A stretch of DNA of 64,000 bases from Pegoplata infirma. Taxonomy: Eukaryota > Arthropoda > Insecta > Diptera > Anthomyiidae. Below, in pieces: positions 1,451-60,202 of the stretch. A program made the position numbers and the translations under genes. The DNA lies in NCBI GenBank assembly GCA_963921195.1, contig OY992540.1, positions 62,318,844-62,382,843 of the forward strand, read 5' to 3'. Position 1 is the stretch's first letter; every line of letters starts with the position of its first letter. The notes below the pieces were generated by a model. It searched no databases and had not been told where the DNA came from. It worked only from the letters and a program-made list of their open reading frames with translations.

Positions 1451-1779
1451 ATATTTACTTTTTGATGGCAACAAAAAAATTATGCCTTCCTGATATGTGT
1501 TTGTACGAAACCAGAAAATATTTTTCTCTTATTTTTCTAACATTGCAGCAGTTTTGCAATATTTCTTGTAGCATCTCTTCCTCTTAGAATATAATAGTGC
1601 TGGTAAATTTTTTCGCAGATTTTTCCTTTTTTTTAAAAACATCATCGCATGTATAAAAAAAGGCATTCCATGCAAAATCAGAAATTCTTGGACATGAAAT
1701 AGAAATAAAATGAAATATTTTTTATTAATTTTCTTAATTTTTTTTTGGATATTTAAGCTTTTTTTAAAAAAAAAACACT

Positions 1780-2070
1780 GAAGGTTTCGGACTGTTTCAA
1801 AAATTCGATTTAAATTTTTAAAAGTTAAAAATTAAGTAAAAATTAGTTTAACATTTTTTTTTTTAATATTTTTTTCTAAAAAATGTTGTCCAAGTTTTTT
1901 TAAGATATTAAAATTTTTTACTGGTCAAAATTAATCGAAAATTTTAATTTCTTAATTTTTTTTAAAAAATCGTAATTTTTCAAAACCGATTACTCAAAAC
2001 AAACTTGGAATAAAAGCCTGAAAATTGGTGTGCAAATTAAGTTTAGTACGTACTGAAACATATCAAAAAA
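1780..2070. mobile_element. fragment of GGGGCATTCC foldback element (outer part of one arm)
   Basis: The stretch from AAGGTTTCGGACT to ACTGAAACATATC matches the right arm of the foldback elements at 60203-62237 and 33498-35352. Shared landmarks include AATGTTGTCCAAG (other copies have AACGTTGTCCAAC), the GATTACTCAA segment and the TTAGTACGTACT region. It stops about 45 bases short of the expected GGGGCATTCC terminus. The MITE at 2084 follows almost immediately. Confidence 0.75.
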
Positions 2071-2083
2071 TTAGCGATATCTA

Positions 2084-2658
2084 ACAAGGAAGGTCTTTTA
2101 CATGGCATCCACCGAATGTTCTGAAATTTGCATATAGAAAAGAGGGGATCAACATAAGAGTTACCTGGTTTTTAGCTGCCTACTCTCACATTAAGCGGGT
2201 CAAAAGGGAGGGGGGAAAATGGGTATTTTTCATCTTTTGAGACTTTTTGGTATTTCTTCAAGAGAAACTATATGAACATTTAATACAAATGGAAAAGGTT
2301 TTTGAAGGCCTATCCAATGCCGTATCGGTCGTGTCAAAATTCGGCTTCCTTAAGTTCGTTATTGTCAAAAATGTATAAACGTTGGGGTAGTTTATATGGA
2401 GATGTATATCTGTACGACCCCCAAAATCATATATAATAATCTCTATTAAAATTATGCTGACCCATATTTTTCCGTTTGGCGAAATTCCTGCTAGTTAGGA
2501 TTTTATTCGGTTTTTCCCGAGAGGCCATATTTTTTCATAAGGTGGCAACCCATTTTTAAATTTGAGAATGGACAGCTAAAAACACAGGTAACTCTTATTT
2601 TTTCTCCCCTCATTCCAATATTTAATTTTCAGGACAACCGGTAAGTGCCCTTCCTTGT
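2084..2658. mobile_element. MITE with ACAAGGAAGG terminal repeats, copy 1
   Basis: The ends read ACAAGGAAGGTCTTTTACA on the left and, inverted, ACAAGGAAGGGCAC on the right. Further in, CTCTTAT and GGTAACTC blocks are mirrored. About 575 bp and no open frame. A second copy, in the opposite orientation, lies at 37991-38571 and shares the interior, including the TTCGTTATTGTCAAAAAT and GGCGAAATTCCTGCTAG segments. The left flank is TA in both copies; the right flank is AA in both, so the target duplication is unresolved. Confidence 0.85.
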
Positions 2659-3589
2659 AATTGAGCCATGTCTGAAAATCTGTGATTTGATATGGACTGC
2701 CCCATATGTAGAGACGTGCACAATCCGAAAAAAAAACATTTTATTTCGAAATAACTCTAGACATAGAGTGTTTGCAAAAGAAGAAACAATAACAACAACT
2801 ACAAAGCTAACATCACAACAAATATGATGCTAAAATGTACTTTTAGACATATACAAATTTATTTTCGTGGCTACAAAAAGAATGCAAAAAAAACGTTATT
2901 GTTTAAATTTATGAAAATATATTTACACATGGAGTTATGTATATTTTTTTTTTTTGGAAATTGTAGTTGAAAGAAGAATTTCAAGAGCATACAAATCAAA
3001 TACACTGAAAGGAAAAATATGAAAAAACTTGGACTAACAACAACTTATTTTAAATGACATCGACTTGAACTTAAGAGAACAGAAACGTTTTGTGTTTAAT
3101 TTAAATTTAACATTTAAAAATTTAAAAATTTAAGAATTTAAAAATTACTAACATGGGATTTTGTAACATTTTTAAATTTAGGTATTGAACGTGAGGCCGT
3201 ATGGTCCCCTGAAAAGAATAACTAATCATTTCAACTTACAATAATTTCGCTACGGTTTTTTTTCTGTGTACAAATTTAGAGTTTGGGTAAAAATGTTAAA
3301 AATCTTTCACTAAATTTTTGTAGTGTATTTTTTTTTTTTTAACTTCTTTTATTTTTTCACAAAAACACACAGCACCTTAAATAACAACAATAAACATTGA
3401 AATCGTGTACACGTGACTAAAGCTTTATTACAATTATTCTTCATTAATTTTATTTTTTATCTACTGCGGAAGAAGATAACATAGAATGTTTAGATGACTT
3501 TAAAGAATATTTTTTTTTTTTGATAAATGCGGAAAATTCTAGAATGAGTTTTGAAAAGTAAAACCAATGCAGAAAAAAAAATCAGAAAA
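2659..3589. other. AT-rich intergenic sequence, no gene seen
   Basis: No convincing frame, RNA gene or terminal repeat was found. There are short TTTAAAAA-type runs near 3110-3150 and T-rich stretches. The last 50 bases grade into CAGAAAA-rich sequence that resembles decayed monomers of the following array. Confidence 0.6.
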
Positions 3590-4490
3590 AATTCAGAAAA
3601 ATAGAAAATTCAGAAAAACATAAATTAATTAGATTTATTTTCAGAAACTAATAATTTTTCTACAGGAAAAATTACTTAGAATCTTATACTTTTGCTTTAG
3701 GAAAAATGTCTCAGATTCTGCAACTTTTTCTAAAAAAAATTACCAGAACCTGATGCTTTTTTATAGGAAAATTATTTATAATCTAAGATTTTTTCTATAG
3801 GAAAAATATATCAGAATCTGAGACTTTTTCTATTGAAAAAAAAATCTTAGAATCTGAAAAAAATGTCAAAGAATTTAAGATTTTTTCTAAAGGAAAAATA
3901 TTTTAGAATCTGAGTCTTGTTCTATAGTAAAAATATAATAAAATCTAAACCTTTTTCTTTCTGATACTTTTTCTATAGGAAAAATGTCTTAGAATCTGAG
4001 ACTTTTTCTATAGGAAAATTGTCTCAGAATCTGAGATTTTTTCTGTAGGAAAAATGTCTCAGAATCTGAGACTTTTTCTATAGGAAAAATGTCTCATAAT
4101 CAGAGACTTTTTCTATAGTAAAAATGTCTCAGAATCTGAGACTCTTTCTATAGGAAAAATGTCTCAGAATCTCAGACTTTTTCTATAAAAAAATGTCTCA
4201 GAATCTGAGACTTTTTCTATAGGAAAAATGTCTCAGAAAATGAGACTTTTTCTATAGGAAAAATGTCTCAGAAAATGAGACTTTTTCTATAGGAAAAATA
4301 TAACAGAACCTGATGCTTTTTATAAGAATATTAGTTAAGAATCTAAGACTTTTTCTATAGGAAAAATATTTCAGAATCTGAGGCTTTTTCTATTGGAAAA
4401 ATATCTTAGAATCTGGGAAAAATGTCTAAGAATCTATTACTCTTTCTATAGAAAAAACGTCTCAGAATCTGAGACTTTGTCAATAGGAAA

Positions 4491-7400
4491 AATGTCTCAG
4501 AATCTGAGACTTTTTCTATAAGAAAAATGTCTCAGAATCTGAGACTTTTTCTATAAGAAAAATGTCTCAGAATCTGAGACTTTTTCTATAAGAAAAATGT
4601 CTCAGAATCTGAGACTTTTTCTATAAGAAAAATGTCTCAGAATCTGAGACTTTTTCTATAAGAAAAATGTCTCAGAATCTGAGACTTTTTCTATAAGAAA
4701 AATGTCTCAGTATCTGAGACTTTTTCTATAAGAAAAATGTCTCAGAATCTGAGACTTTTTCTATAAGAAAAATGTCTCAAAATCTGAGACTTTTTCTATA
4801 AGAAAAATGTCTCAGAATCTGAGACTTTTTCTATAAGAAAAATGTCTCAGAATCTGAAACTTTTTCTATAAGAAAAATGTCTCAGAATCTGAGACTTTTT
4901 CTATAAGAAAAATGTCTCAGAATCTGAGACTTTTTCTATAAGAAAAATGTCTCAGAATCTGAGACTTTTTCTATAAGAAAAATGTCTCAGAATCTGAGAC
5001 TTTTTCTATAAGAAAAATGTCTCAGAATCTGAGACTTTTTCTATAAGAAAAATGTCTCAGAATCTGAGACTTTTTCTATACGAAAAATGTCTCAGAATCT
5101 GAGACTTTTTCTATACGAAAAATGTCTCAGAATCTGAGACTTTTTCTATAAGAAAAATGTCTCAGAATCTGAGACTTTTTCTATAAGAAAAATGTCTCAG
5201 AATCTGAGACTTTTTCTATAAGAAAAATGTCTCAGAATCTGAGACTTTTTCTATAAGAAAAATGTCTCAGAATCTGAGACTTTTTCTATAAGAAAAATGT
5301 CTCAGAATCTGAGACTTTTTCTATAAGAAAAATGTCTCAGAATCTGAGACTTTTTCTATAAGAAAAATGTCTCAGAATCTGAGACTTTTTCTATAAGAAA
5401 AATGTCTTAGAATCTGAGACTTTTTCTATAAGAAAAATGTCTCAGAATCTGAGACTTTTTCTATAAGAAAAATGTCTCAGAATCTGAGACTTTTTCTATA
5501 AGAAAAATGTCTCAGAATCTGAGACTTTTTCTATAAGAAAAATGTCTCAGAATCTGAGACTTTTTCTATAAGAAAAAGGTCTCAGAATCTGAGACTTTTT
5601 CTATAAGAAAAATGTCTCAGAATCTGAGACTTTTTCTATAAGAAAAATGTCTCAGAATCTGAGACTTTTTCTATAAGAAAAATGTCTCAGAATCTGAGAC
5701 TTTTTCTATAAGAAAAATGTCTCAGAATCTGAGACTTTTTCTATAAGAAAAATGTCTCAGAATCTGAGACTTTTTCTATAAGAAAAATGTCTCAGAATCT
5801 GAGACTTTTTCTATAAGAAAAATGTCTCAGAATCTGAGACTTTTTCTATAAGAAAAATGTCTCAGAATCTGAGACTTTTTCTATAAGAAAAATGTCTCAG
5901 AATCTGAGACTTTTTCTATAAGAAAAATGTCTCAGAATCTGAGACTTTTTCTATAAGAAAAATGTCTCAGAATCTGAGACTTTTTCTATAAGAAAAATGT
6001 CTCAGAATCTGAGACTTTTTCTATAAGAAAAATGTCTCAGAATCTGAGACTTTTTCTATAAGAAAAATGTCTCAGAATCTGAGACTTTTTCTATAAGAAA
6101 AATGTCTCAGAATCTGAGACTTTTTCTATAAGAAAAATGTCTCAGAATCTGAGACTTTTTCTATAAGAAAAATGTCTCAGAATCTGAGACTTTTTCTATA
6201 AGAAAAATGTCTCAGAATCTGAGACTTTTTCTATAAGAAAAATGTCTCAGAATCTGAGACTTTTTCTATAAGAAAAATGTCTCAGAATCTGAGACTTTTT
6301 CTATAAGAAAAATGTCTCAGAATCTGAGACTTTTTCTATAAGAAAAATGTCTCAGAATCTGAGACTTTTTCTATAAGAAAAATGTCTCAGAATCTGAGAC
6401 TTTTTCTATAAGAAAAATGTCTCAGAAGCTGAGACTTTTTCTATAAGAAAAATGTCTCAGAATCTGAGACTTTTTCTATAAGAGAAATGTCTCAGAATCT
6501 GAGACTTTTTCTATAAGAAAAATGTCTCAGAATCTGAGACTTTTTCTATAAGAAAAATGTCTCAGAATCTGAGACTTTTTCTATAAGAGAAATGTCTCAG
6601 AATCTGAGACTTTTTCTAGAAGAAAAATGTCTCAGAATCTGAGACTTTTTCTATAAGAAAAATGTCTCAGAATCTGAGACTTTTTCTATAAGAAAAATGT
6701 CTCAGAATCTGAGACTTTTTCTATAAGAAAAATGTCTCAGAATCTGAGACTTTTTCTATAAGAAAAATGTCTCAGAATCTGAGACTTTTTCTATAAGAAA
6801 AATGTCTCAGAATCTGAGACTTTTTCTATAAGAAAAATGTCTCAGAATCTGAGACTTTTTCTATAAGAAAAATGTCTCAGAATCTGAGACTTTTTCTATA
6901 AGAAAAATGTCTCAGAATCTGAGACTTTTTCTATAAGAAAAATGTCTCAGAATCTGAGACTTTTTCTATAAGAAAAATGTCTCAGAATCTGAGACTTTTT
7001 CTATAAGAAAAATGTCTCAGAATCTGAGACTTTTTCTATAAGAAAAATGTCTCAGAATCTGAGACTTTTTCTATAAGAAAAATGTCTCAGAATCTGAAAC
7101 TTTTTCTATAAGAAAAATGTCTCAGAATCTGAGACTTTTTCTATAAGAAAAATGTCTCAGAATCTGAGACTTTTTCTATAAGAAAAATGTCTCAGAATCT
7201 GAGACTTTTTCTATAAGAAAAATGTCTCAGAATCTGAGACTTTTTCTATAAGAAAAATGTCTCAGAATCTGAGACTTTTTCTATAAGAAAAATGTCTCAG
7301 AATCTGAGACTTTTTCTATAAGAAAAATGTCTCAGAATCTGAGACTTTTTCTATAAGAAAAATGTCTCAGAAGCTGAGACTTTTTCTATAAGAAAAATGT

Positions 7401-7934
7401 CTCAGAATCTGAGACTTTTTCTATAAGAGAAATGTCTCAGAATCTGAGACTTTTTCTATAAGAAAAATGTCTCAGAATCTGAGACTTTTTCTATAAGAAA
7501 AATGTCTCAGAATCTGAGACTTTTTCTATAAGAGAAATGTCTCAGAATCTGAGACTTTTTCTAGAAGAAAAATGTCTCAGAATCTGAGACTTTTTCTATA
7601 AGAAAAATTTCTCAGAATCTGAGACTTTTTCTATAAGAAAAATGTCTCAGAATCTGAGACTTTTTCTATAAGAAAAATGTCTCAGAATCTGAGACTTTTT
7701 CTATAAGAAAAATGTCTCAGAATCTGAGACTTTTTCTATAAGAAAAATGTCTCAGAATCTGAGACTTTTTCTATAAGAAAAATGTCTCAGAATCTGAGAC
7801 TTTTTCTATAAGAAAAATGTCTCAGAATCTGAGACTTTTTCTATAAGAAAAATGTCTCAGAATCTGAGACTTTTTCTATAAGAAAAATGTCTCAGAATCT
7901 GAGACTTTTTCTATAAGAAAAATGTCTCAGAATC
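4491..7934. repeat. homogenised core of the 35-bp array, about 98 monomers
   Basis: Almost every monomer here is identical and carries the TATAAG form, which makes the second hairpin stem fully Watson-Crick. Rare variants serve as markers: AAGCTGAG at 6426 and 7371, AGAGAAATG at 6481, 6586, 7426 and 7531, CTAGAAG at 6616 and 7561, and AATCTGAAAC at 4851 and 7091. High uniformity in the centre and decay at the edges is the pattern expected from repeated unequal exchange. Confidence 0.95.
6426..7605. repeat. 945-bp (27-monomer) duplication inside the array
   Basis: Four marker variants recur in the same order at a constant offset of 945 bp: 6426/7371, 6481/7426, 6586/7531 and 6616/7561. 945 is exactly 27 x 35. 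The full extent is not visible because most monomers are identical. It is a direct record of one block duplication. Confidence 0.92.
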
Positions 7935-8744
7935 TAAGACTTTTTTTGTAGGAAAAATGTCTCAGAATCTGAAACTTTTTCTGTAGGAAAAATGTCTCAG
8001 AATCTGAGACTTTTTCTGTAGGAAAAATGTCTTAGTTTCTAATACTTTTTCTATAGGAAAAATGTATCAGAATCTCAGACTTTTTCTATAAGAAAAATGT
8101 CTCAGAATCTGAAACTTTTTCTATAGGAAAAATGTCTTAGAATCTGAGACTTTTTCTATAGGAAAAATATCTCAGAATCTGAGACTTTTTCTATAGGAAG
8201 AATGTCTCAGAGTCTGAGACTTTTTCTATAGGAGAAATGTCTCAGAATCTGAGACTTTATCCTAAGGAAAAATGTCTTAGACTCAAAGACTTTTTCAATA
8301 GGAAAAATTTCTTATAAACAGAGGGTTTTTCTGTAGGAAAAATGTGCCAGAGTCTGTATCTTTTTCTATACAAAAAATTTCTTAGAATCTGAGACTTTTT
8401 CTTTGGGAAAAACTTCTAAGAAGCTGAGAATTTTTTCTGGGAAAAATGTCTCTGAATCTAGAATTTTTTCCATAGGAAAAATGTCTCAGAATGTAAGACT
8501 TTTTCTATAGAAAAAATTTCTCAGAATCTAAGGATTTTTCTGTAGGAAAAATGTCTCAGAATCTGAGACTTTTTCTAACGGCAAAATGTCTTCGAATATG
8601 AGTAATTTTCTATCGCAACAATGTCTCAGGATCTGATACTTTTTCTAAAGAAAAATGTCTCTGAAGCTGAGACTTTTTCTAACGGAAAAATGTTTCAGAA
8701 TTTGAGAGTTTTTTTTTTAACGGAAAAATGTCTCAAAACCTGAG

Positions 8745-9190
8745 ACTTTTTCTATAGGAAAAATGTCTCAGAATCTGAGACATTTTCTGTAGGAAAAATG
8801 TCTCAGAATCTGAGACTTTTTCTATAGGAAAAATGTCTCAGAATCTGAGACTTTTTCTATAGGAAAAATGTCTCAGAATCTGAGACTTTTTCTATAGGAA
8901 AAATGTCTCAGAATCTGAGACTTTTTCTGTAGGAAAAATGTCTCAGAATCTGAGACTTTTTCTATAGGAAAAATGTCTCAGAATCTGAGACTTTTTCTGT
9001 AGGAAAAATGTCTCAGAATCTGAGACTTTTTCTATAGGAAAAATGTCTCAGAATCTGAGACTTTTTCTGTAGGAAAAATGTCTCAGAATCTGAGACTTTT
9101 TCTGTAGGAAAAATGTCTCAGAATCTGAGACTTTTTCTATAGGAAAAATGTCTCAGAATCTGAGACTTTTTCTGTAGGAAAAATGTCTCA
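8745..9190. repeat. secondary uniform sub-array with mixed TATAGG and TGTAGG monomers
   Basis: About 13 monomers are near-identical apart from CTATAGG or CTGTAGG in the second hairpin. From 8884 to 9059 these forms alternate, giving a local 70-bp dimer. The block is flanked by much more diverged monomers, so it looks like a second, separate amplification. Confidence 0.8.
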
Positions 9191-10409
9191 GAATCTGAGA
9201 CTTCTTCTATAAGAAAAATTTCTCAGAATCTGAGACGTTTTCTATAAGAAAAATGTCTCAGAATCTGAAACTTTTTCTATAAGAAAAATGTCTCAGAATC
9301 TGAGACTCTTTCTACAAGAAAAATGTCTCAGAATCTAAGACTTTTTCTATAAGAAAAATGTCTCAGAATCTGAGACTTTTTCTATAAAAAAAATGCCTCA
9401 GAATCTGAGAATTTTTCTATAGGAAAAATATCTCAGAATCTGAGAATTTTTCTATAGGAAAATGGTCTCAGAATCTGAGAATTTTTCTATAGGAAAAATG
9501 TCTCAGAATCTGAGAGTTTTTCTATAGGAAAAATGTCTCAGAATCTGAGAATTTTTCTATAGGAAAAATGTCTCAGAATCTGAGACATTTTCTGTTGGAA
9601 AAATATCTCAGAATATGAGACTTTTTGTATAGCAAAATGTCCCAGAATCTGAGACTTTTTCTATAGGAAAAATGTCTCAGAATCTGAAACTTTTTCTATA
9701 GGAATAATTTCTCAGAATCTGAGACTTTTCTATAGGAAAAATGTCTCAGAAACTGAGACATTTTCTGTAGGAAAACTATCTCAGAATCTAAAACTTTTTC
9801 TATAGGAAAAACGTCTCAGAATCTTAGACATTTTCTACAGGAAAAATGTCTCAGAATCTGAGATTTGTTTCTATAGGAAAAATGTCTCTTAATCTGATAC
9901 TTTTTCTATAGGAAAAATTTCTTAGAATCTGAGACGTTTTCTATAGAAAAAATGTCTCAGAATCTGAGACATTTTAAATAGGAAAAATGTTTCAGAATGT
10001 AAGTCATTTTCTATAGAAAAATTGTTTTTAAATCATTTCTTTATGAGAAATGTATCAGAATCTAAGACTTTTTCTATAGAAAAACTGTCACAGGATCTGT
10101 GACACTTTCTCTCTCAGAAACTGTGACGGTTTTGATTTCAGAATCGGAGAAATTTCTGTATCAATAAAATCTTAGAATCTACAACTGTATCTTAAGAAAT
10201 CGTTTCTCTAAATTGAGACTTTTAATTGAGGAACAATTTCTTGTGTGGCAACAAAAGTTCAAAATCCAATAATTTGCTTTAGAAAAATTGATAACCGTCT
10301 GATACAATTAATATTTTAAATCATGTCTAAAATTTTAAATTTTTTGGAAAACTTGCTCAAGAATTTTAAATTTTTGGGAGAAAAGTTATTGGGATCTTGT
10401 TTCCCTGAA

Positions 10410-10531
10410 TCAGTTACATTTAAGTTCAGGAAAAGACGGCGCGCGAAAAAATTTCAAAATATGTGCAGATATGTAAATTAAAAAAAAAAATTTTGGGCCC
10501 CATGCGAAAAAAAATCCTGCATACGCCCCTG
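10410..10531. mobile_element. right terminus of the hAT-like element that carries the 35-bp array
   Basis: The block from CAGTTACATTTAAG through AAAGACGGCG, ATTTTGGGCCCC, GCGAAA and ATCCTG to ATACGCCCCTG is matched in the same order by 25729-25836, the right end of a complete hAT-like element. The expected target duplication on the right would be CCATGAAG (10532-10539). I could not find a matching left terminus or CCATGAAG upstream of 3590, so the left boundary is lost or diverged. Confidence 0.8.
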
Positions 10532-22880: not shown

Positions 22881-23040
22881 TGTATACAAATGATTGATAG
22901 AGTCATTCATACATAGAAACAGGTACAAATAAATACTGAATACATATGTTTTTCAAAGTATAGGACAAATAAACATTAAAAAACAAATGCACCACAGTAT
23001 CATCCCCATCAAATTTGTTGGTCGACAACAGTGGCGTACA

Positions 23041-23078
23041 CAGGGGGGGGGGGGCCCGGGGGCCCGGGCCCCCCCCGA
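23041..23078. repeat. GC-only palindromic tract at the element's left end
   Basis: A G-run, then GGGCCCGGGGGCCCGGGCCC, then a C-run: 36 of 38 bases or more are G or C, in a region otherwise near 70-75% AT. The tract is self-complementary and lies 12 bases inside the terminal repeat. It could form a very stable hairpin. Confidence 0.9.
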
Positions 23079-23739
23079 AATGATTTCACAAATTTCACTA
23101 TTCGGTATTAAATATTATGTACAATGTAAAAAAAACTTCTTAAAAAAAATTTAAAAACATTTCAGAATCTGAAATTTTTCTGAAGGAAAATTTTTCGAAT
23201 CTGAAAATTTTTCTGCCAGAAAATGTCTCAAAATCTGAAAATTTTTCTTTAAGAATTTGAAACGTTTTAACTTAAAATTCTTATAGAAAATTGTCTCAGA
23301 AACTGAATACAAAAAAGGGATCTAATTGTAAGTAGTTTGTAGTAACAACTTAAAAATTTATTATTAGTTCATATCTTCTCAGAATCTGGTATTTATTCTG
23401 ACTTTTTCTATAGAAAAAATTTCTTAGAATCTGAGACTTTGCCTTTGAAATAATGTTCCAGATTCTGAGACTTTTTAGTATAGTATCTATGTATGTATAT
23501 AATGTCTCAAAAATTTTGACTTTTACTCAGTATCGAAGACTTTTTCTTTAGGAAAAGTCTCAGAATCAGAGATTTTTTCTATATAAAAATATCTCAGAAT
23601 CAGAATTTGGGAAAAATTTATTAAAATCAGACACTTATGCTATCTAAAACTTTTTTTATTATAAAATGTCTTAAAATCTGAGATTTTTCTTAGGACAAAT
23701 GTCTAAGATTCTAAGACTTTTTTCATAGGTAAAACTGTT

Positions 23740-24864
23740 TATTTTCGTCCCTTCGCGATTTTTTTTTTAAGTTTGAACTACAAAAAATTCTTGTACCGAT
23801 ATGCTATACATATACTGCAAAAAAGTTATGAAACATTTAGCGGTTTTCCAGTGGTGCAGAAATTTTCAAAAAACATACACATAACTCCTTTTTTAAGTAC
23901 TTTTTGGAACAAAATTTAAATAAATGGAAATATTTTTTACACATAACTCCTTTTGCTTATGAAACCATTCTTATTGTTAATTTCTTTTCGAGAGGGACAA
24001 ACACTAAATATAGTTTGTTGGCGGTTTAAAGCGACATTTGTTAGGCAAGGTTCTTAAAATTTTAATATTTAAAAGCTCTTCACTAAACAGCGAATAACAG
24101 ATTTTTCGCAAAACTGGTGCTGATTTTTTGTTTTTTCTTGTAAATATTCAAGAGCTTTGACATTAATTGACATCTGAGAAAGATGCTGCACTTAAGATAC
24201 TAAAATTTTCCGCCGTCCTATGATTTAAATGATTTCAAAAGGCTTGCTTACCCGCCATTTAGGATTTAGATAGCAGGATGAAAAAATGCAAATATTTTCC
24301 AAAAAAATCTTGACAAATTCATTTAAAATACTTGGATGCTATGTGTGAGCCTCATATTACTAAAAAAGTGGTCCATTTTGTCACGTTCTGTTACTTTTTT
24401 ATCAAAAAAAGTTATGTGTAGCTTAACACATAACTCCTTTTCAGACCTTTTTTTAGTATGACGAACACATAGCTCCTTTTACTAACTTTTGAACCAATCA
24501 AGATATCAAAAAAAGGTTTAGTGAGTAAACGTATGACTAATAGGGGATCATAAAGATGTAATAAAAAAAAATTTCAAAAACTGCACATGACTCCATTTTT
24601 AGGCGCAGCGACGATATTATGTTTCAATTTTTGGTGTGTCGAGAATATAATTAACTATAACATTGTTACAACAACCATATTGTACTTTTGGATGTAGCAA
24701 TTATTTTGTCATGATTGAAGGGACTATTAAATGTCTAAAACAACCATATAAATGTTTAAATACAATTTTAAAAACAATAACTTGATTGCTGCAATCATAA
24801 ATGGGTTTAGAGATCATAGTATAGTTGCCGTGATCATGTCGCAACCATATTTTTTCTCTGCGTG
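23740..24864. other. non-repeat block inside the hAT-like element
   Basis: It interrupts the 35-bp monomers on both sides. It has at least four CATAACTCCTTTT-type motifs (about 23880, 23940, 24430, 24470) and, near its right end, ACAACCATAT motifs and GCAACCATATTTTTTCTCTG. It may be a nested insertion, but I found no target duplication. Confidence 0.45.
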
Positions 24865-25844
24865 AATTTCTTTAGGAAAAATGTCTCAGAATATGAGACT
24901 TTTTCTTTAGAACCTTATGGTTTTTCTTTAGGAAAAATGTATCAGAATCTGATGCTTTTTATGGGAATAGGAATGTATTAGAATCTAAGAATTTTTCTAT
25001 AGGAAAAATTACTTCATCGATAGGAAAAATGTATCAGAATCTGAAATTTGTTCTATAGGAAAAATATCTCATAATTTAAGACTTTTTCTATTTGGAAAAT
25101 ATCTTAGAATCTGAAACTTTTTTATAGGCAAAATGTCTCAAAATCTAAGACTTTTTCTATAGAATAAATGTCATAGAATCTGAGACTTTTTCTTAAGGAA
25201 AAATGTCTCAGAACTTGATAATTTTTCTTTAGAAAAAATGTCTCAGAATCTGATACTTTTTTTTTTGAAAAATGCCTCAGACTTTTTCTATGGAAAAAAT
25301 GTTTCAGAATCTGAGACTTTTTTATAGGAAAAATTAATCAAAATATGTGACTTTTTCTATAACAAAAAAATGTTTCAGAATCTTAGACTTTTTCTAACGA
25401 AAAAATGTCTCAGAATCTAAGACTTTTTCTAAATGATAAATATCTTAGAATCTAAGACTTTTACTACTTGAAAAATATTTCAGAATCTGAGACTTTTCCT
25501 ATAGAAAAAGTGTCTCAGAATCTTGGAATTTTTCTATAGAAAAAATGTATCAGAATCTGAGTGTTTTTCTATAGAAAAAATGTATCAGAATCGGAGACTT
25601 TTTCTATAGGAAAAATGTATCAGAATTTGAGACTTGTTTCATAGGAAAAATGTCCCAGAAACTGTGATTTATTCTATAGGAAAAATGTCTCAGAAGCTGG
25701 GAATGTATCAGAATTTGGTTACTCTTAATCAGTTACATTTTGTTTCAAGGGAAAGACGGCGGAAGAAAAAGATATGCAAATTAAAAAAAAAATAAAATTG
25801 GGCCCCCTGCGAAATAAAATCCTGGATACGCCCCTGGTCGACAA

Positions 25845-33497: not shown

Positions 33498-35352
33498 GGG
33501 GCATTCCAATACAAAATTTTTTTAAATTTTTTTGGATATGTTTTAGTACGTATTAAATGCAACTTGCTCTCAAATTTTCAGATTTTTAGACCAAGTTGGT
33601 GTTGAGTAATAAATTTTTCAAAATGGCGATTTTTTCAAAAAAAATTAAAAATTTTAAATTTTCAATTAATTTTGACCAGTAAAACATAGAGATATCTTAA
33701 AAAAAATTGGAAAACGTTTTGTTGGAATTTAAATGAAGTTTCAGAAAAAAAATGTGTAAAAGTTATTTGAAGTAATTATCACTTATTTTTTATCGTTTAA
33801 AAATTAAAATCGACTTTTTGGAAAGGTCCGAAACCTTCGATTTATTTAAAAAAAAAGTCTACAAATTCTACTCTAGATTACGAAACTTTTCAGCCATAAT
33901 TCGAGATTTGATCAAAATTCGTTCTATTTTTTTTTTTTAATTTTGAAAATTGCACGATCGGACATGGGTAAGGCGTTCAGCATGGTCCTTGAAGTTTAAA
34001 AAACGGATTACGAGGAAAAATATGAATTGTTTTCTGTTTTAACATTTTTTTGTATTTTAAGTAAAGTTTAAACTCTAGTGGTCACAGAATTATGATGTGG
34101 AGTAAAATGCTTTTCTAATAAGGTACTAAAAACTAAAATCGGTTGAAAATCAGCCAAGTTATTTCAACTTCCCCAGGCATCTAGGGCGTGTCATACTACT
34201 TGTTTAAAGAATACGAGTCCCATTTTTTAAATTTAGTGAAATTATCTACTGTAATAACGTTTTTTCATTATTCTTGTTTCAGTGTAATATTTTTTTGGTT
34301 TTTCCAAATTTTTAAACAAAAAAAAAAAAAAATTTAAATGTAGATTTTAAAAGGGTGTTGAAAATGCAGGCATTTTTAGCATTAATTTAAAACAATATGA
34401 AAAACTTTTCATCTAACTACATTTGAACTTGAGGAATAAAAAAATGTTATTACAGTAGAAAATTTTAATAAATTTCAAAAATACAATAGCTTAATCAAGT
34501 GGTCTGTGACACGTTTGATGTCTCGGGAAGTTATAATACTTAGCTTGGCTGATTTTCAACCGATTTTAGTTTTTATTATCTTATTAGAGAGGCATTTTAC
34601 TCCGTATTATAATTCTGTAACCACTTGAATATAAACTTAGCTTAAAATACCAAAGAAATTGAGAAAACAAAAAAAAATCATATTTTTCCTTGTAATCTGT
34701 TTTCTAAATTTCAAGGCCCATGAAGAACGCCTTACCCTTGTCCGATCGTTCTTAATTTTTGTGAGACGTATTCTTACCTCCAAATGAATATATCTAGGGT
34801 AAGTTAGGGTCAGTATCTACCAATTTTTTTTTGTTGGCACCATATAAAATAAATCAGAATCAAAAAATAAAAGGTGCAATTTTTAAAAATTTAAAAAAAA
34901 ATATAACAAATTGCGATCACATCTCAAATAATGGCTTAAAAGTTGCGTAATTTAAAGTTGAACTTTAAGACTTTAAAAAAAAAAAATCTAAGGTTTCGGA
35001 CTTTTTCAAAAAGTCGTTTTTAATTTTTAAACGTTAAAAAATAAGTGATATTTACTTCGAATAATTGTTTAATATTTTTTTTCTAAAACTACATTTAAAT
35101 ACCAACAAAACGTTGTCCAACTTTTTTAAGCTATCTGTATTTTTTACTGATTAAAATTAACTGAAAATTTTAATTTTTAAATTTTTTTGAAAAAATCGCC
35201 ATTTTGAAAAATTGATTACTCAACACCATTTTGGAATTATAGTTTGAAAACTGGTATACAAGTTGCATTTAATAAGTACTAAAACATATCCAAAAATAAA
35301 ATAAATCGAAAGGGGTCGGGTCTAATGTGAGTGGTTTGGCCTGGAATGCCCC
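33498..35352. mobile_element. foldback element with GGGGCATTCCA ends, copy 2
   Basis: It starts GGGGCATTCCA and ends TGGAATGCCCC. The two halves are inverted copies: GATATGTTTTAGTAC, GTGTTGAGTAAT, AACGTTTTGTTGG, GATCGGACA, GAAGTTTAAAAAACGG and TTTCTACTGTAATAACG blocks all have mirrored partners. The left arm has lost about 40 bases near the terminus. There are no frames. Same family as 60203-62237. The right flank is a GAGGGTATA repeat. Confidence 0.88.
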
Positions 35353-35450
35353 ATATACTTTATGGGGTCCTAGACCAATATTTCGAGGTGTTACAAACGG
35401 AATGACAAACTTACATATACCCTCTACGACTAGAGTAGAGGGTATAAAAA
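35353..35450 (+). repeat. 3' end of a GAGGGTATA repeat
   Basis: ATATACTTTATGGGGTCCTA, AATATTTCGAGGTGTTACAA, then ACCCTCTACGACTAGAGTAG and the closing GAGGGTATAAAAA. It abuts the foldback element directly, so that element inserted into, or next to, this repeat. Confidence 0.85.
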
Positions 35451-36238: not shown

Positions 36239-37272
36239 CACTGTGCTATTGGCAAAAATTAACAAGCTGGGTACCCTGCTGGTAAAGCTAATTCGGGTAC
36301 GCTGAATTCAGTGGTGCTAGCCGTTTTTCAAAGTAAGCGCTCGTATTCGCAATATTCGCGATTTAAAGGCCTAGGTACTATAATAATGAAATTTGTTTGC
36401 TTTTGGGATAGTTTTTAAATATAAATTTAGAAAATCCATTGTTTTTTTTTTTGCGAAAAAAAAATTTACCGCGAAAATTTTTTTTTTTCGGAAAATTCTG
36501 TGTCTGTAATTTATCGTATTCCATTCATTTTTATAAATTAAAAGGAAAAATTTGCGCAAAAAAAATCGCGTTATTCGCGTCATTCGCGATTTAAAGGCCT
36601 AGGTACTACAAAAATGAAATTTGTATGCTTTTGGGATAGTTTTTAAATATAAATTTATAAAATCCATTGGTTTTTTGGCGAAAAAAAATTTTACCACAAA
36701 AAAAAATTTTTCGCGAAAAACAAAAAAAAAATCCGCGAAAAAAAAGTTTTTTTCCAAAATTTTTGTGCCGTATTTACTCATTTTCATAAATTAATAGCAA
36801 AAAAAAAATGGAAAAAAAATTCGCAAAAAAAAAACGCGAAAAAAATCACGGTATTGTGGTTTGTTATGTTAGTTTAACAGACTTGAATGGTTTTAAATTT
36901 AAAATTTATCGCAAAAGTTTAAAAATATCGTTTTTATTGTACTTGAGCATCAAAATTTTAAATCGCGAATATCGCAATACGAGCGCAAATAAAAATTGGA
37001 AAAATAAATCGCAAAAAAAAATCGCGTAAAAAATTCACGGTATTGTGGTTTGTTATGTTAGTTTAACAGACTTGAATGGTTTTAAATTTAAAAATTGTTG
37101 CAAAAGTTTAAAAATATCGTTTTGATTTTACTTGAGCATTAAAATTTTAAATCGCGAATACGAGCGCTAACTTCGAAAAGCGGCTAGCCCCCCCAAATTC
37201 AGCGTACTTGAATTAACTTTACCAGTAGGGTGACCAGCTTGTTAAAAAAAAGTGTCAAATCCGAGCACAGTG
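36239..37272. mobile_element. inverted-repeat element with CACTGTGCTC-type ends, TAA flanks
   Basis: CACTGTGCT at the left and GAGCACAGTG at the right, with TAA directly outside both ends (36236-36238 and 37273-37275). The arms mirror AACAAGCTGG, GCTGGTAAAG, ACGCTGAATT, GGTGCTAGCCG and GCGCTCGTATTCG. Each arm carries a tandem duplication of its own: 228 bp on the left (36361/36589) and 189 bp on the right (36851/37040). A 3-bp duplication with CACTG ends resembles CACTA (EnSpm) elements; that assignment is tentative. No transposase. Confidence 0.75.
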
Positions 37273-38628: not shown

Positions 38629-38975
38629 GACCTGACCCCCTTCGGTCCCCTTCATGTGTTAGTACATATTAAATGCAACTCTCACACGAATTTTCAGACT
38701 TTTAGGTCAAGATGGTGTTAAGTAATCAGTTATTCAAAATGGCGATTTTTTTCAAAAAATGATTTTAATTTTCAAACGTTAAAAAATAAATGGTTGTTAC
38801 TCTGAATAATTTTTTAATATTTTTTTCTAAATCTTTCGTATAACAAAACGTTGTCCAACTTTTTTTAAGATACCGAAATTTTTTACTGATCAAAATAAAT
38901 TGAAAATTTTGATTTTCTTAATTTTTTTGAAAAAATCGCCATTTCGAAAAATTGATTCCTTAACACAAACTAAAT
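38629..38975. mobile_element. short, internally deleted GGGGCATTCC foldback copy
   Basis: Outer left-arm sequence (CGACCCCTTTCG-like CTGACCCCCTTCGGTCC, TTAGTACATATTAAATGCAA, AAGATGGTGTTAAGTAAT) runs directly into right-arm sequence (TTTTCAAACGTTAAAAAATA, AACGTTGTCCAAC, AAATCGCCATTT). This is a solo short form. It is cut at its right end by the retrotransposon relic that follows. Confidence 0.65.
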
Positions 38976-38984
38976 GACTGAAAA

Positions 38985-40320
38985 TTGTTCTTGTTGAACT
39001 TGTCTTGTTCACAAAAAGGACTAAGATAGACAGGTTTGTTCTTCCCAAACTAGATGGAATCACCCTAGAACTATCTAATGAGGCGAAATACCTAGGTGTA
39101 ATCCTGGACTCAAAGCTTTCCTGAAAAAGGAATACAGGGGAAAGCATGAAAAAGTCGTTATGTGCTTTTTACACCTGCAGAAGAACTTTCGTAAGAAGGT
39201 GGGGTCTTAAACCGTATATTATACTCTGGATGTATTGTGCGATAATTAGACCAATACCTACCTACGGGGCCCTTGTGGGAAGCAGCAGATAAGAAATCAT
39301 ATCTCTGCAACCTTCAGAAGGTACAACGACTGGCGTGCTTGGGTATCACTGGTGTTATTAGATCAGCACCACAGCAAGGCCTGGAAGTGATACTAAACAT
39401 TCAGCCCGTAGATATCTACATCAAGAGCACAGCGGCAAAATCGGCTCTCAGACATAGAGAGTCGCAAATGCTTAAGCAACGCTCTTGGGGACACTCGACC
39501 ATATTAAGTACGATGGGCGGGACGGAATTAGAACAGAAAACCGACTATAAATCACCACAGACGAACTTTGATAGGAAATTCGAGGACCAAATACCAACTA
39601 GGGAAGACTGGGCGGAAAACACTTTTATTACGGGGAATGCTCTGTATACTCTGAATGCCTCGGAATCAGGGCCTCAGTGACCGGGCAAGTGTAGTGTTTT
39701 GCAGGCCGAAGTTCTTGCAATCGACAAAGCCGCGCAGATGGTTATGACAAAGGACCTAAGTCCTTGCCCCATTAACATTTATGTGGATAGCCTTGCAGCT
39801 CTGAAAGCCTTAGAATCGAATACTGTAAAACCGAGAATTGTTAGTAACTGTATACAATCCCTTCATCGAATCAGTCAGCACACAGTTAAGCTAATCTGGG
39901 TCCCTGGACATAATGGGGTCGATGGTAACGAATTAGCTGACGAATGTGCAAGAGATGGCTCTGAGTCGGTGGGGGAACGTGTCGAACCTAATACCACGAT
40001 TCCTATAGTGGAGTTCATGAGCGAAATTGATAGGATATCGGAAAATAGGATGAAGGATAGGTGAATATCACTGACCACGTGCAGGATATCTCGAACCATG
40101 TGGCCACTGCCGGATCCTAAGAAGACAAAAAGTCTTCTTACCTTTGGCAAACGGACGGTTAGCCTATTAGTAGGAGTACTGACAGGACACTGTATAATCG
40201 GCCGAATGGCCGCTCGTATGGGAATTCCTGATAGGAACTTTTGCAGAAGTTGTGGGGAAGTGGAGGAGGAGGAATCAGTTAAGCACTTGTTTTGCCACTG
40301 TCCGGGACTGATGAATTGAC
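38985..40320 (+). pseudogene. decayed LOA-like retrotransposon polymerase, 5'-truncated
   Basis: Starting near 38993 the translation reads ELVLFTKRTKIDRF and EAKYLGVILDSKLS, then a stop and shifted frames that continue with RRWGLKPYIILWMYC, and VQRLACLGITGVIRSAP (thumb). From 39699 an RNase H part follows with QAEVLAIDKAA, INIYVDSLAAL and LIWVPGHNGVDGNELADE, so three of the four acidic or histidine sites are present. The first site, with its TDGS-type motif, appears lost. A tail CRSCGEVEEEESVKHLFCHC gives the CCHC finger. It is the same clade as the intact element at 43565 but a different, older family. Inactive. Confidence 0.85.
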
Positions 40321-43381: not shown

Positions 43382-43646
43382 CTGGAAAAATGGGTATAAA
43401 AAAAAAGTTTGCACATATCCGACCTTGAAATTTTTTAAATTCGGAAGGTAATTGATTGTCCTAGAGAACTTTTATGGTTTTATAGCTAACATATGCTATA
43501 ATTTTTTTTAAAGTCAAAATAAAATTCCAATTCATACTTCAATAAGTTCATCTTAAGGTCACTTGACCTAAAATTGTTCGTAATAGGTTTGTTCGTAATA
43601 GGTATTTTTGTGATATTTTCATTACCACATCAAGGAAAATGAAAAT

Positions 43647-45050
43647 ATGGACACAAATGATACCGATTTAGTTCGAGGCTCTGCCTCACCGACTGGTGCT
43701 GGTCCTAGCACTGGTCTTAGGGTTGCGACCTTGAAGTCCGGCCTTGATTCTGGTAGGGGTGCTCAGCCTAATATTGGTGGTAAAAAGAAAAAGAAACTTA
43801 AGCCATCAAAGGTCAGGCACAACCAGAGAAGGCTTTGTTTGAAAATAATTAACAGACTAAGCCAACTCGATGGAACGAAGCTCTCCGAACGTGAGAGGGC
43901 GTCGCTATCATGGGCGAAAGGAGTCATTGAAGAACAGGACAAACTTTCGGCAATGCGCGCATCTGACAAACAGAGCGCTGTTTCGGCCTCGTCATCGAAG
44001 TCTGGTAAAAGGTTGCGCTCGCCCGACGAGAAACCTTTACCTAAAAGATCTAAGGTGACCGGCAACGTCTGGACTCAGTCTTTTAGTGAAGTGGTGAAAG
44101 GTAACTTCGTTAGGGCTGTGATAAACAGGCAAAATGGGGATTGTAGTATTCCAAGGGACAAGTGGAGTTTAGTTGAAACTAAACTAAATGAAATCTACTA
44201 TAGGCTTCTTGAGAGTATGCCTGATTTTCTCCCTACTACTGTCAACGCAGGTTGGTATCAGGGGCCAGTAAAACTCGTTGCTTTTGGAAACGAAAGATCC
44301 GCAGCCGTGTTTAAGGTGGCCATTAGCCAAGTGGGAGAGTTATGGCCTGGAGCCAGACTGGACGTTGTGGAAAAACATGATATCCCCTCGCAACCCAGAG
44401 CTCATGCATGGATCCCAATGGCTACAAGTGACACTGCGGTGATTCTAAAGATGATAAAAGTCTGCAATCCTGACCTTCCAACTCAGAATTGGCAAATTGC
44501 CAGATTGGGTGAGATGGAGGGCGCTCGTCGTCAAGCAGTGGTCTTGGTTAATGAGGAATCGCTTCCGCTTTTAGCCAGGACTGACGGCATTATTAGATTT
44601 GGCTTTTTTCATATAAGAGTCAATGTCTACAAGGGCGACCAGAAGCCTATTTTGGAAGCAGACAAGCCAGTGGCAGAGTCGGCTGGGGAGGAGAATCTGG
44701 AAAAGGTTGATATTCAGCTGACCGATTCTAGGCTGATGGGAGATGCATCTGGCATTTTCGAAACCGAATCTGGTAACGAATGCGACCTCTGTGATGGCAC
44801 GGAGGATAAAGCTGATGCCACTATGGGTGACATTCAGGACGAGGCCCATGCAGTGAGGAATTCGGAGAGTTCTGTTGCCTCCGATTCAGAACAGATGGGA
44901 CACTTATCTGGCTTATTCGAAACCGAATCTGGGGACGAATGCGACCTCTATGATAACACGGAGGATGAAGCCAATAACACGGTGGTGGAAAGGATGGTGG
45001 AAAAAAAGCAAGATGTTGCGGTTCCTACAAATAAACCTCCATCACTGTAA
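43647..45050 (+). CDS. LOA-like retrotransposon ORF1 (nucleic-acid-binding particle protein)
   Basis: 467 codons from the first ATG after the leader. Residues 46-62 are strongly basic (five consecutive K, then KPSKVRHNQRR), and 121-136 (KRLRSPDEKPLPKRSK) looks like a bipartite nuclear localisation signal. Residues about 150-330 form a compact domain with AGWYQGPVKLVAF and PGARLDVVEK; it resembles the DUF4780 domain of insect retroelement ORF1 proteins, from memory. No CCHC knuckle is visible here. The C terminus is acidic and carries two copies of a unit built on FETESGNECDL and FETESGDECDL, 53 residues apart. The last 38 bases overlap the ORF2 start, in a different phase. Its expected role is to package the element's RNA. 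Confidence 0.88.
   Translation: MDTNDTDLVRGSASPTGAGPSTGLRVATLKSGLDSGRGAQPNIGGKKKKKLKPSKVRHNQRRLCLKIINRLSQLDGTKLSERERASLSWAKGVIEEQDKLSAMRASDKQSAVSASSSKSGKRLRSPDEKPLPKRSKVTGNVWTQSFSEVVKGNFVRAVINRQNGDCSIPRDKWSLVETKLNEIYYRLLESMPDFLPTTVNAGWYQGPVKLVAFGNERSAAVFKVAISQVGELWPGARLDVVEKHDIPSQPRAHAWIPMATSDTAVILKMIKVCNPDLPTQNWQIARLGEMEGARRQAVVLVNEESLPLLARTDGIIRFGFFHIRVNVYKGDQKPILEADKPVAESAGEENLEKVDIQLTDSRLMGDASGIFETESGNECDLCDGTEDKADATMGDIQDEAHAVRNSESSVASDSEQMGHLSGLFETESGDECDLYDNTEDEANNTVVERMVEKKQDVAVPTNKPPSL
44735..45050 (+). repeat. 159-bp tandem duplication inside ORF1
   Basis: GATGGGAGATGCATCTGGC at 44735 recurs as GATGGGACACTTATCTGGC at 44894, 159 bases (53 codons) later. GAAACCGAATCTGG and GAATGCGACCTCT repeat at the same offset. 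The phase is kept. Confidence 0.9.
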
Positions 45051-48000
45051 GGCAGCCTCAGCTGCACTATTGCTGCGCCTGACGACAGGAGCAGTTGACT
45101 TGGTTTTTATCCAAGAGCCCTGGGTGCGGGGTGGCAGGGTTTGCGGATTGAAGACCCCTGGGTTTAAGTTGATGGTTGCCAAAGGTGAGGGCTCACCAAG
45201 AGCCTGCATCTTGGCGAAAAATGGCTTAAATATATTCTTTTTATCAACTTTTAGTGATATGGATGTTACAGCGGCTAGCTTAGAGCTTCATGGGAAATCT
45301 ATTTGGCTCGCCTCTGCGTATTTTCCTAATCCGGGGCCAATACCCCCTGAGAAGGTTGGCGGTCTGATTCGGGAGTCTGAATCTAGGGGACACCAGTTAC
45401 TAGTGTGCTGTGATGCTAATGCACATCATTCGATATGGGGTAGTACAGACACAAATGATAGAGGCGAATCACTTTTGGAGTTTTTGTTAAGCACTAACCT
45501 GTATATTTGTAACAAGGGTAGTGAACCAACTTTCGTTACAAGTACGCGGCAAGAGGTTCTTGACGTAACACTTGTATCAGATACATTGTCTGACAGAATT
45601 GATGACTGGAGAGTTTTGGAAGAGCATTCTTTCTCAGATCATCGCTACATTGAGTTTTTACTCAGGGAGCGTGCCCCGGTTGAGACAGTCTCTAGAAATC
45701 TGAGAAGAACAAACTGGGTGAAATATAGGGAGACTTTTTCTTTGCTTTTGGATGAAGTACCCCTATCTGAACCGCATAGTTTAGCGGAAATTGACTGTCT
45801 GGTTGACCATATAACAAATGTTTGTAATAGGTGCCTGGATGCGTCTTGCCCTTCTGCAAAGCCTAGAGGAAAAAAAAAGCCACCTTGGTGGTCAAATGAG
45901 TTGCAGACGAGCAGAGATTCCTGCAGAAAGCTCTTTAATAAGGCTAAATTTTCAAGAGCGGACGAGGACTGGTCTGCATACAGGCTGCAACTTAAGAGTT
46001 ATAAAAAGATGATCAGAAATGCAAAATGTGATTCTTGGAAAAACTTCTGTGGAAACATAGAAGACGTTTCTGAGGCATCCAGGCTGCGCAAGGTTCTGGC
46101 TTCTTCTCCTTGCACCCTAGGATACCTGAAAGATCCTAATGGGGTGTGGTCTTCCTCCAGTGGAGAGTCGCTGGATCTCCTTTTAAACACGCATTTTCCG
46201 GGCAATTCCATGACGCCGTTTCAAGCTTTGGAACGTTCTGACGCCCAAGCATCTGAAATTGCTTCGGAAATAATAAATATGCCAACATTAATCTGGGCGA
46301 TAAAAAGCTTCAGGCCCTATAAATCCCCGGGACCTGATGGTATAATCCCGGCTGAGTTGCAGCAAGTGTTGGACTATATAGCCCCGTTGCTGTATAATCT
46401 ATACACAGCATGCATCAACTGGTCGTATATTCCTTTAAAATGGAGGGATACCAGAGTCGTATTTATCCCGAAGGCTGGGAAAAGTTCCCACACAGCTCCG
46501 AAGGATTTCAGACCAATTAGTCTGTCTTCTTTTTTGTTAAAGACAATGGAACGAATGATAGACTCATATTTGCGTAGAGTGATTGACCCGAGGTTGCTTT
46601 CGACAAAGCAACATGCATACAGCAAGGGACGATCAACGGAAACATCTCTTCATGAGCTCGTTGGTACCATCGAGAGATCGCTTTCGGTAAAGGAGTACAC
46701 TATGGTGGCCTTTCTTGATATTGAGGGGGCTTTTAATAATGTCATTCCAGAATCGATAATATTGGCATTGTCTGGTCTGGGAGTAAAGCGTGAAATCGTT
46801 TTAATGGTGGAAAACCTACTTGCCAATAGACGTATAACGTCTGAATTGGGAGCGTCCGTCATATCTCGATTTGTCAATAGGGGCACACCACAAGGAGGTG
46901 TTCTTTCGCCGCTTCTTTGGAACCTGGCACTGAATTCAATGCTACTATCTCTAGAAGCACGTGGTTGTTATGTTATCGCATATGCTGACGATGTCGCGAT
47001 AGCGATAAAGGGGAAGCATCTGCCAACATTGCGGGACATTCTTCAGGGTTCTCTGAAAGATCTGTCTAAATGGGCAAGAGACTGTGGTCTAGGAGTTAAT
47101 CCCAGTAAAACAGAGCTTGTTTTGTTTACAAGGAAAAATAAGATTCCTGCTTTTGATCCTATTTCTCTGGACGGTACTGAAATCACCTTCTCAGATGGAG
47201 CCAAGTATCTTGGGGTATTTCTAGATAGGAAGCTGAATTTCAGGCGTAATATTGAGGAACGGGTGAGAAAAGCAACGATTGCTTTGTATTCCTGTAAAAG
47301 GGCCATTGGAAAACGATGGGGTTTTAGCCCTCAAGTCGTTCATTGGATCTATACAGCAGTGGTGCGTCCAATTTTGCTGTATGGAATCATTGTCTGGTGG
47401 CCTGCTTTGGAAACAAAAGCGAACTTTGTCTTTATCACGAAGGTACAGAGAATGGCGTCAATGTGCATCACTGGTGCTCTTCGTACTACACCTACGGCTG
47501 CATTAGAAATCCTCCTTCACCTGATACCCTTGGACATATTGGGTAGGCAGTATGCGGCTGCGTCGGCAATTCGACTTAATAGCACGCTGCAATGGAGGAG
47601 CAGTGATTGTGGCCATAGCGCGATCTTGAAAAAGATAACAATACCACAAAATGTGGACTGTGCTCCCTCTTTGAGCCTCTTTGAGCGCCACTTTACCACT
47701 ATGATACCATCCAGGGAGTCTTGGATGGGGGATACTCCGGGTAGTGGAGCTACCATAAATTTTTACACAGATGGATCGAGGCTGCACGAACAAGTGGGCT
47801 TTGGGGTCTATTCGGAAGAGCTTGGATTGAGCCTGGCTCGTAGATTGCCAGATCATTGCAGTGTTTACCAGGCAGAGATGCTGGCAATAAAGGAAGTGGC
47901 TGACTGGTTGAGCTGCAATGTCTTGTCTACAACCGCAGTCAACATCTATACTGACAGTCAAGCCGCGGTCAAGTCCCTGGATTCAATGTTTCTGAAAACA

Positions 48001-58758: not shown

Positions 58759-60202
58759 GTCTTTGTTTCTCATAGCTCCAAATGTAAGTCTATACGTGAA
58801 ACTGGTGGGTCTAATGGGTCAGTAAATCGGTAAATGATTTCGTGAACCCTTCGTGAAGTATTTACAAAAGAAATATTTTGATTACTTTAAAGCTCTTCTC
58901 TGTGTATAGTATTTTTGTGCCTTTACGTTTTTTTTTACGTTTTACTCTTGACTCTTTTTGCTTTGAGTTCAGTTGTGTTGTGTTAGTGTTCTGGATTCTG
59001 GATTGTGTTTTACGTTTTTTTTGTGTTTTACACTAAAGTTGCTTTGTGTTTAAGCATGCATGTGCGTGCTTACTTGCTAATGCCTCATGTGGTTGATGTA
59101 TGCTGTTTTAATTTTTTTTTTTTTCGTGTGTGTTTGTTCTGGGCTGTGTTTGTTCCATCTTGTATTTGGTGTGTTCTTTGTATCAACGATACATGTTGGT
59201 TGCTCCCTTTTTTTATTGAATGTATGGTTTTGTTGTTGTTGCTGTTGAGATGTTTCTTGTAGCTGTAGATGTTGTTCTTCTAGCCGATTTTGTTGTTGCT
59301 ATTGTTGTGTAAAAGGAAATTTTCGTTCTTTAAGCATACATTACATACAAAAAAAAAAATAAAGGATAAACAGGAAATCAAGTATCATCATAAGAACCAA
59401 AAACAATAGTGATGTGTGTGTTAGAGTTTTTTTTTGTAAGTATGGTGGAGCAAAGGTTTTAAGATGTCTCAAAATCTAAGATTTCAAGGATCTGAGATTT
59501 ATTTCAGACGAAAAGTTTTTCAGAATCTGAATTTTTTTTTATACATACAAAGAAATTTCTCAGAATAAATTCCGACTATTTTTTTTTTTTTAAATAAAAA
59601 TTGTTCTTTTTGACCTTTGAGTAGGTTTATTATAGCTCGAGGGCCATTTTTGCAAGATTTAGCCGACATGTGTTTCGGAATTTGTCAGATTTCAAGTTAA
59701 AAAAATGCAGAAGAAAAATTTAATTTCCAAAAATTATAGACATTTCTGGTATTCTTATACCGGTTTCAAACAGTCCAGTTAGTGTTATCATCAGCAGGAT
59801 TTTAAATGTCGGTTTTCTTTCTAATTTCTATTTGAAAAATGTCACAGAATTTGTTACATATGTATCAAGCTACATTCCCACTGTAATTTTGCTACCGCTT
59901 GTACAAAATTCCTGTTGGTGTGTCTGTATCTCCGTCTACACGTTCATATGTGAGCATTACATTTGAGTAGTGCTTTATGTGATAATGATGACGTAGCAAA
60001 ACAATCAATTAACGCATTGATAGGCTATCAACCAGGCAATTTATTTCACTTGCGTAAATCCATTATAAATCTTATAATTGCCTGTTTAAATCAAAACAAA
60101 AAAATTATCCAGAAGAACCCTTAGCAAATAGTATAGGAAGTAAGAAGAGGAAAACATAATCCTACTTCCAGACGAAAAAAATACGCACACACACTTATAC
60201 AT
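58759..60202. other. intergenic sequence with old repeat fragments
   Basis: No gene supported; the 85-codon frame at 59005-59262 is T-rich noise. 59463-59560 holds decayed 35-bp-type motifs (AGATGTCTCAAAATCTAAGA). 59600-59690 is an inverted, diverged piece of the TGTATTAATATTTTAG repeat (GCTCGAGGGCC, TTTGCAAGATTTAGCCGACA). Confidence 0.5.

Follow-up and report, generated by a model that had tools for sequence, protein, structure and literature searches.

A 35-bp double-dyad minisatellite in Pegoplata infirma, very probably the expanded interior of a dispersed hAT-like DNA transposon

We analyzed a 64-kb stretch of contig OY992540.1 from the genome assembly of the fly Pegoplata infirma (hereafter the window, with positions counted from its first base), in which a minisatellite array of 35-bp monomers occupies 3621-10241 on the forward strand. 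This array very probably arose by expansion of the interior of one truncated DNA transposon copy, belonging to a dispersed, non-autonomous family that is best placed as hAT-like. The extent of the array was defined by monomer listing, by Tandem Repeats Finder and by matches to the interiors of complete copies of the element, which run over 3621-10241. Loci labelled L0xx were fetched from the assembly (1.384 Gb in 813 contigs). A preliminary description of the same stretch had overlooked the transposon.

Another array of this family (the second array) occupies approximately 23160-25700 of the window. In a self-comparison with the arrays masked, the right flank of the first array (10399-10531) matched the right flank of the second (25718-25836) at 74%. 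The second array lies between CAGTGGCGTA at 23029 and TACGCCCCTG, which ends at 25836; immediately outside both of these ends (23021-23028 and 25837-25844) is GTCGACAA, an exact 8-bp target-site duplication. With short inverted ends and an 8-bp duplication, the second array therefore has the anatomy of a DNA transposon. Its ends, its duplication and the array listing define 23029-25836 as a complete copy on the forward strand with a divergent array inside. For the first array, the flank match and the end search place the right (AT-type) end of the transposon at 10414-10531 on the reverse strand, with the terminus TACGCCCCTG at 10522-10531. About 1.1 kb of non-array sequence (23735-24865) splits the array of the second element and is possibly a nested insertion.

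The ends of the transposon read CAGTGGCGTATACAGGGG... and CAGGGGCGTATCCAGGATTTT..., and the exact 21-base terminus is present in 1,763 copies in the assembly (883 + 880), compared with 0 for a reversed-pattern control. For the first eight listed termini we fetched 4 kb each, blind to the presence of an array, and the minisatellite was found within 4 kb of all eight (12 to 55 monomers at no more than 7 differences). The other end, with a matching duplication, was found at seven of the eight; the duplication is exact over 8 bp in six and matches over the 6 available letters in L035. At the eighth terminus, L031, the 4 kb fetched yielded no other end. The duplication ATCCGACC is common to L032, L034 and L036, which have best pairwise matches of 93.8-96.3% and are probably copies of one insertion or insertions into the same repeat. 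The seven termini therefore give five distinct duplications. Two other complete elements, at L009 406-5991 and L024 6214-8105, likewise have CAG-type ends and an exact 8-bp duplication.

Together with the window copy and the seven blind-fetched copies, these form a set of ten complete elements of 1,797-5,586 bp. Every one of them contains the array, at 4 to 28 monomers each within 7 differences, and 152 of their 153 monomers have the same orientation relative to the element ends. Since the array is found at 8/8 blind ends and in this fixed orientation, the minisatellite is a regular part of the element. The same two observations argue against the reading in the preliminary description, a free-standing satellite or minisatellite that is driven by its hairpins, favours the paired form and lies next to transposon ends by coincidence, and we consider that reading very unlikely. 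The element is apparently non-coding. Among the ten complete elements, the longest open frame is a repetitive one of 273 amino acids in L036; it is a reverse frame of that element and consists of repeated SVPFECIRLF-like units.

The monomer, GTCTCAGAATCTGAGACTTTTTCTATAAGAAAAAT, consists of two back-to-back dyads with 14 of 14 possible stem pairs, a number reached by none of 20,000 monomer shuffles in any rotation (the best shuffle reached 13). The core of the window array (4494-7923, forward strand) is an ungapped, head-to-tail series of 98 monomers in the TATAAG form, 81 of them identical, with 17 substitutions in 3,430 bases. Both the double-dyad monomer and the roughly 98 near-errorless core copies were correctly recognized in the preliminary description; its word "giant" overstated an array of about 6.6 kb. 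A count of stem pairing in core and edges, suggested there, showed a sharp separation: both stems are perfect in 87/98 core monomers and in none of the 22 left-edge or 62 right-edge monomers (edge monomers are counted here at no more than 3 gaps). The edges had been said to carry mostly TATAGG. This is borne out for G at column 28 of the monomer (18/22 on the left, 51/62 on the right), but strict TATAGG accounts for only 9/22 and 23/62, and 12 of the 62 right-edge monomers have TGTAGG. Edge monomers differ from the TATAGG consensus by a mean of 3.9 on the left and 2.9 on the right. The core is a far more homogeneous block flanked by older, divergent monomers of the same family.

Monomers of the complete elements have TATAGG as their consensus (at column 28, G in 80, A in 52, T in 17 and C in 4), and the TATAAG core of the window is therefore best read as derived. 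A second, smaller amplified block at 8800-9184 on the forward strand contains 11 monomers, six with TATAGG and five with TGTAGG, that are otherwise exact. Because this block mixes two forms, more than one form has been amplified inside the window array. Within the core, four variant monomers return 27 monomers (945 bp) downstream, the two copies of the pattern occupying core monomers 56-61 (6419-6628) and 83-88 (7364-7573), both on the forward strand. This block repeat is the trace of a block duplication or else an assembly error. The latter could be extended to the size and homogeneity of the core as a whole, since near-identical monomers and a variant pattern 27 monomers apart are also expected from mis-joined reads. 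Comparable homogeneous arrays elsewhere in the assembly, such as 80 monomers in L027 and 41 in L013, make such an error quite improbable.

The preliminary description proposed that it was the fully paired form that had spread. Exact TATAAG monomers number 66,440 genome-wide (32,474 + 33,966) and exact TATAGG monomers 32,212 (16,449 + 15,763). Long runs of the latter also occur: 28 adjacent exact copies lie at C1:2734851-2735830, and in L013 column 28 is G in 35 monomers in a row. In L017, the largest array sampled, the commonest monomer is a third form with 76 exact copies and 11/14 pairs in the register used in the preliminary description; the second half of this form is a perfect palindrome in a neighbouring register. 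Since TATAAG and TATAGG have both spread, the proposal largely fails. What remains of it is that exact TATAAG is about twice as common. TATAAG did well, given that TATAGG is the element consensus, and TATAGG spread too. As these counts are of copies rather than of independent expansions, the paired form may still have a moderate advantage. The full pairing of the core monomers and the 2:1 ratio are in line with a free-standing satellite that favours pairing, against which stand the long arrays built by TATAGG and by the third form.

The energetics and the pattern of substitutions also argue against such a satellite. For the isolated second dyad, TATAAG and TATAGG are about 0.5 kcal/mol apart with DNA parameters and 0 apart with RNA parameters, and in RNA folding of three monomers the TATAGG form is the stabler (-55.2, compared with -50.5 for TATAAG). 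Both results counter the notion that TATAAG folds better. A test for compensatory change used 89 distinct divergent monomers, in which 930 of 1,147 cells were paired, compared with 919 in shuffles (76/2,000 reached the observed value). Both sides of a pair were changed in 28 cases where 20.8 were expected (73/2,000 shuffles), and 14 were changed yet still paired where 10.2 were expected (236/2,000 shuffles). Partner columns changed together at 1.35 times expectation and non-partner columns at 1.16 times. The excess is slight, and selection on pairing gets no real support from it.

Dyads may nevertheless shape rearrangement. Some of the sampled loci hold head-to-head arrays; in L017, for example, the stretch 1558-8759 is head-to-head with runs of 90 and 97 monomers. 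We mapped such switches by dynamic programming, labelling each base by strand and phase and reading the mirror axis of each switch, and regarded as robust those with 70 bp or more to either side. No orientation switch was called in the window array. Among 20 loci and the window, 7/16 robust switches fell on a dyad axis (9/41 unfiltered), and eight added loci contributed 0/2 robust and 1/30 unfiltered. The combined robust rate of 7/18 compares with 11/120 for simulated random joins of window monomers (binomial p = 0.0007). The combined unfiltered rate, 10/71, is near the simulated one, and many of the unfiltered switches are short and doubtful. The seven switches on dyad axes are spread over four loci, with three in L011, and so they are not all independent. 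A cruder first mapping had placed 9/20 switches on the two dyad axes and 16/20 within two steps of these axes. The enrichment is a lead with modest support. The dyads are real, as the preliminary description stated, and a role for them in rearrangement has some support from the robust switches and little from the unfiltered ones. A preference of robust switches for dyad axes would also suit a free-standing, hairpin-driven satellite.

Placement of the transposon in a superfamily draws on its ends and its duplication. Elements of the hAT superfamily have short inverted ends that start with YARNG. Among our ten complete elements the G-rich end is CAGTG in eight and CAATG in two, and the other end is CAGGG in all ten, with one inner mismatch in L009. 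The 8-bp duplication is exact in the window element, in L009, in L024 and at 6/8 blind ends, with the 6 available letters matching at a seventh. Since the ends fit YARNG and the duplication is 8 bp, a hAT-like placement appears the best one. Non-autonomous families derived from hAT elements, such as Mar of Drosophila, likewise have short inverted ends, 8-bp duplications and no coding capacity; we know of no Mar-type family with a kilobase minisatellite interior. With lengths of 1,797-5,586 bp, the complete elements are far from the size of miniature inverted-repeat transposable elements (about 400 bp according to the review PMC9659126). Nor do they resemble foldback elements, which have long terminal inverted repeats made of tandem repeats, as the array in complete elements has a single orientation; L017 and some other loci differ from the complete elements in being head-to-head. 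What we find is a tandem repeat that is constant inside independent insertions (8/8 ends, 10/10 elements), as expected of a transposon-borne satellite.

Several observations weigh against an origin of the window array in a hAT-like transposon. A search of the window and of the 4 kb before it did not recover the left end of the element that holds the first array, and this copy is for that reason regarded as truncated or rearranged. The putative hAT label rests on the end motif, through a general rule, and on the length of the duplication. Domains for hAT dimerisation are common in the assembly, in favour of a hAT-like host, with 150 matches among the 150 scored of 946 candidates, but none of ten transposase loci fetched from these 150 matches carries the ends of our element within about 1.5 kb, so that an autonomous partner was not found among these ten. 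A real host transposon could then belong to another superfamily with 8-bp duplications or be of the foldback type, as the head-to-head arrays at some loci would recall. The agreement of the ends with the hAT motif, the 8-bp duplication and the single array orientation in complete elements make a host of this kind unlikely. The remaining points come from 20 loci on contig C1 that were selected for exact monomers and do not sample arrays at random. The ends of the element occur at four of them (L009, L020, L024 and L025, degenerate in L025), and in L024 the main large array sits outside the element. L011, L016 and L022 have in common a different flank of 357-391 bp at 87-91% identity, which stops at ...TTTTTGTGTG.

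Because the element ends are present at only 4/20 of these loci and another flank is found at three, the minisatellite is not confined to recognizable copies of the transposon. The 16 loci without its ends are also what a free-standing satellite would produce. The flank ending ...TTTTTGTGTG lies beside the minisatellite as the right flank of a second repeat family (L011 6025-6407, L016 5849-6239, L022 6784-7137), and should this family prove to be a separate transposon, two families would contain the array. In L013, 28-bp inverted repeats at 3036-3063 and 5948-5975 (96%) surround a TATAGG array, and this unit is a candidate further host element. No host was assigned to the other 12 loci. At loci without the element ends, the explanation may be decay of the hosts or transfer of the array to other elements. 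L009 and L024 came up again in a generic scan of the 20 loci for inverted ends with 8-bp duplications. Its other leading pairs were rejected as mostly AT-rich and chance-like, with the exceptions of L013 and L028, which have palindromic 8-mers. A flank of 86 bp at 90% is shared by L012 and L014, and short shared flanks or inverted repeats are also present in L023 and L028.

The array is a striking case of a known kind of system rather than a new mechanism. A review (PMC9659126) lists miDNA4 (Scalvenzi and Pollet 2014), from Xenopus tropicalis, as a non-autonomous transposon with an internal satellite motif. Our element resembles miDNA4, as described in that review, in being a non-autonomous DNA transposon with a satellite motif inside and in combining dispersal with local amplification and homogenization. 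It differs in having hAT-like ends and an 8-bp duplication, whereas miDNA4 is placed there in Tc1-mariner, and in its 35-bp monomer of two dyads and complete elements of 1.8-5.6 kb. Tetris of Drosophila virilis (PMC4079207), a foldback element that carries TIR-220 repeats, is likewise a fly DNA transposon that appears to be non-autonomous, and tandem repeats inside it seeded longer satellite-like arrays. According to that paper, its repeats are about 220 bp long and lie in the terminal inverted repeats, while those of our complete elements form an interior array in one orientation; arrays at some of our other loci are head-to-head. The present case is of the miDNA4 and Tetris kind; its ends are hAT-like and its double-dyad monomer is short.

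A possible course of events would begin with a transposase encoded elsewhere, which would spread short arrays. Unequal exchange or replication slippage could then expand one variant at particular loci, and the 27-monomer block repeat may be the footprint of such an expansion step. Arrays may flip at dyads because each 17-bp dyad is nearly its own reverse complement, and the flips may proceed by fold-back, a mechanism described for short inverted duplications in PMC11724301, or by inverted-repeat recombination, in partial agreement with the switch data. We also entertain, as a doubtful possibility, that the double-dyad monomer is itself the agent, folding back during replication or repair and so causing flips at its axes, amplification and passage from one transposon family to another, unrelated one (the hAT-like family and one or more others).

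The window holds several other features. A non-long-terminal-repeat retrotransposon at 43614-48606 has an upstream frame of 478 amino acids and a frame of 1,249 amino acids with endonuclease, reverse transcriptase and RNase H domains. Its closest database relative is 92% identical, among the matches listed, and Calliphora vicina is the sole organism name among 120 listed of 189 relatives of the retrotransposon frame. At 60198-62243, 2 kb match their own reverse complement at 85% and look like a large palindromic transposon, to which pieces at 33529-35358, 1758-2071 and 38654-38987 are related. A tandem duplication of 189 bp (92%) lies in an A-rich stretch at 36797-37160. An Rfam scan of the window gave no match at gathering thresholds. 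Scans of viral contigs, from which records of the source genome are possibly excluded, found 0 stretches with the monomer core and 0 with the transposon end. A literature search that included exact monomer strings found no description of the 35-bp repeat.

Exact monomers of the TATAAG and TATAGG forms number at least 98,652 and cover 3.45 Mb, or 0.25% of the assembly, as a lower bound. The element provides a clear case of a transposon interior as the seed of satellite-like arrays, in which the ancestral form can be read from complete elements and the derived, amplified form from single loci. If the monomer is indeed the agent, this would be a minisatellite spreading across mobile elements. Within one genome, it becomes possible to measure how a transposon gives rise to a satellite and what part hairpins play when arrays invert.

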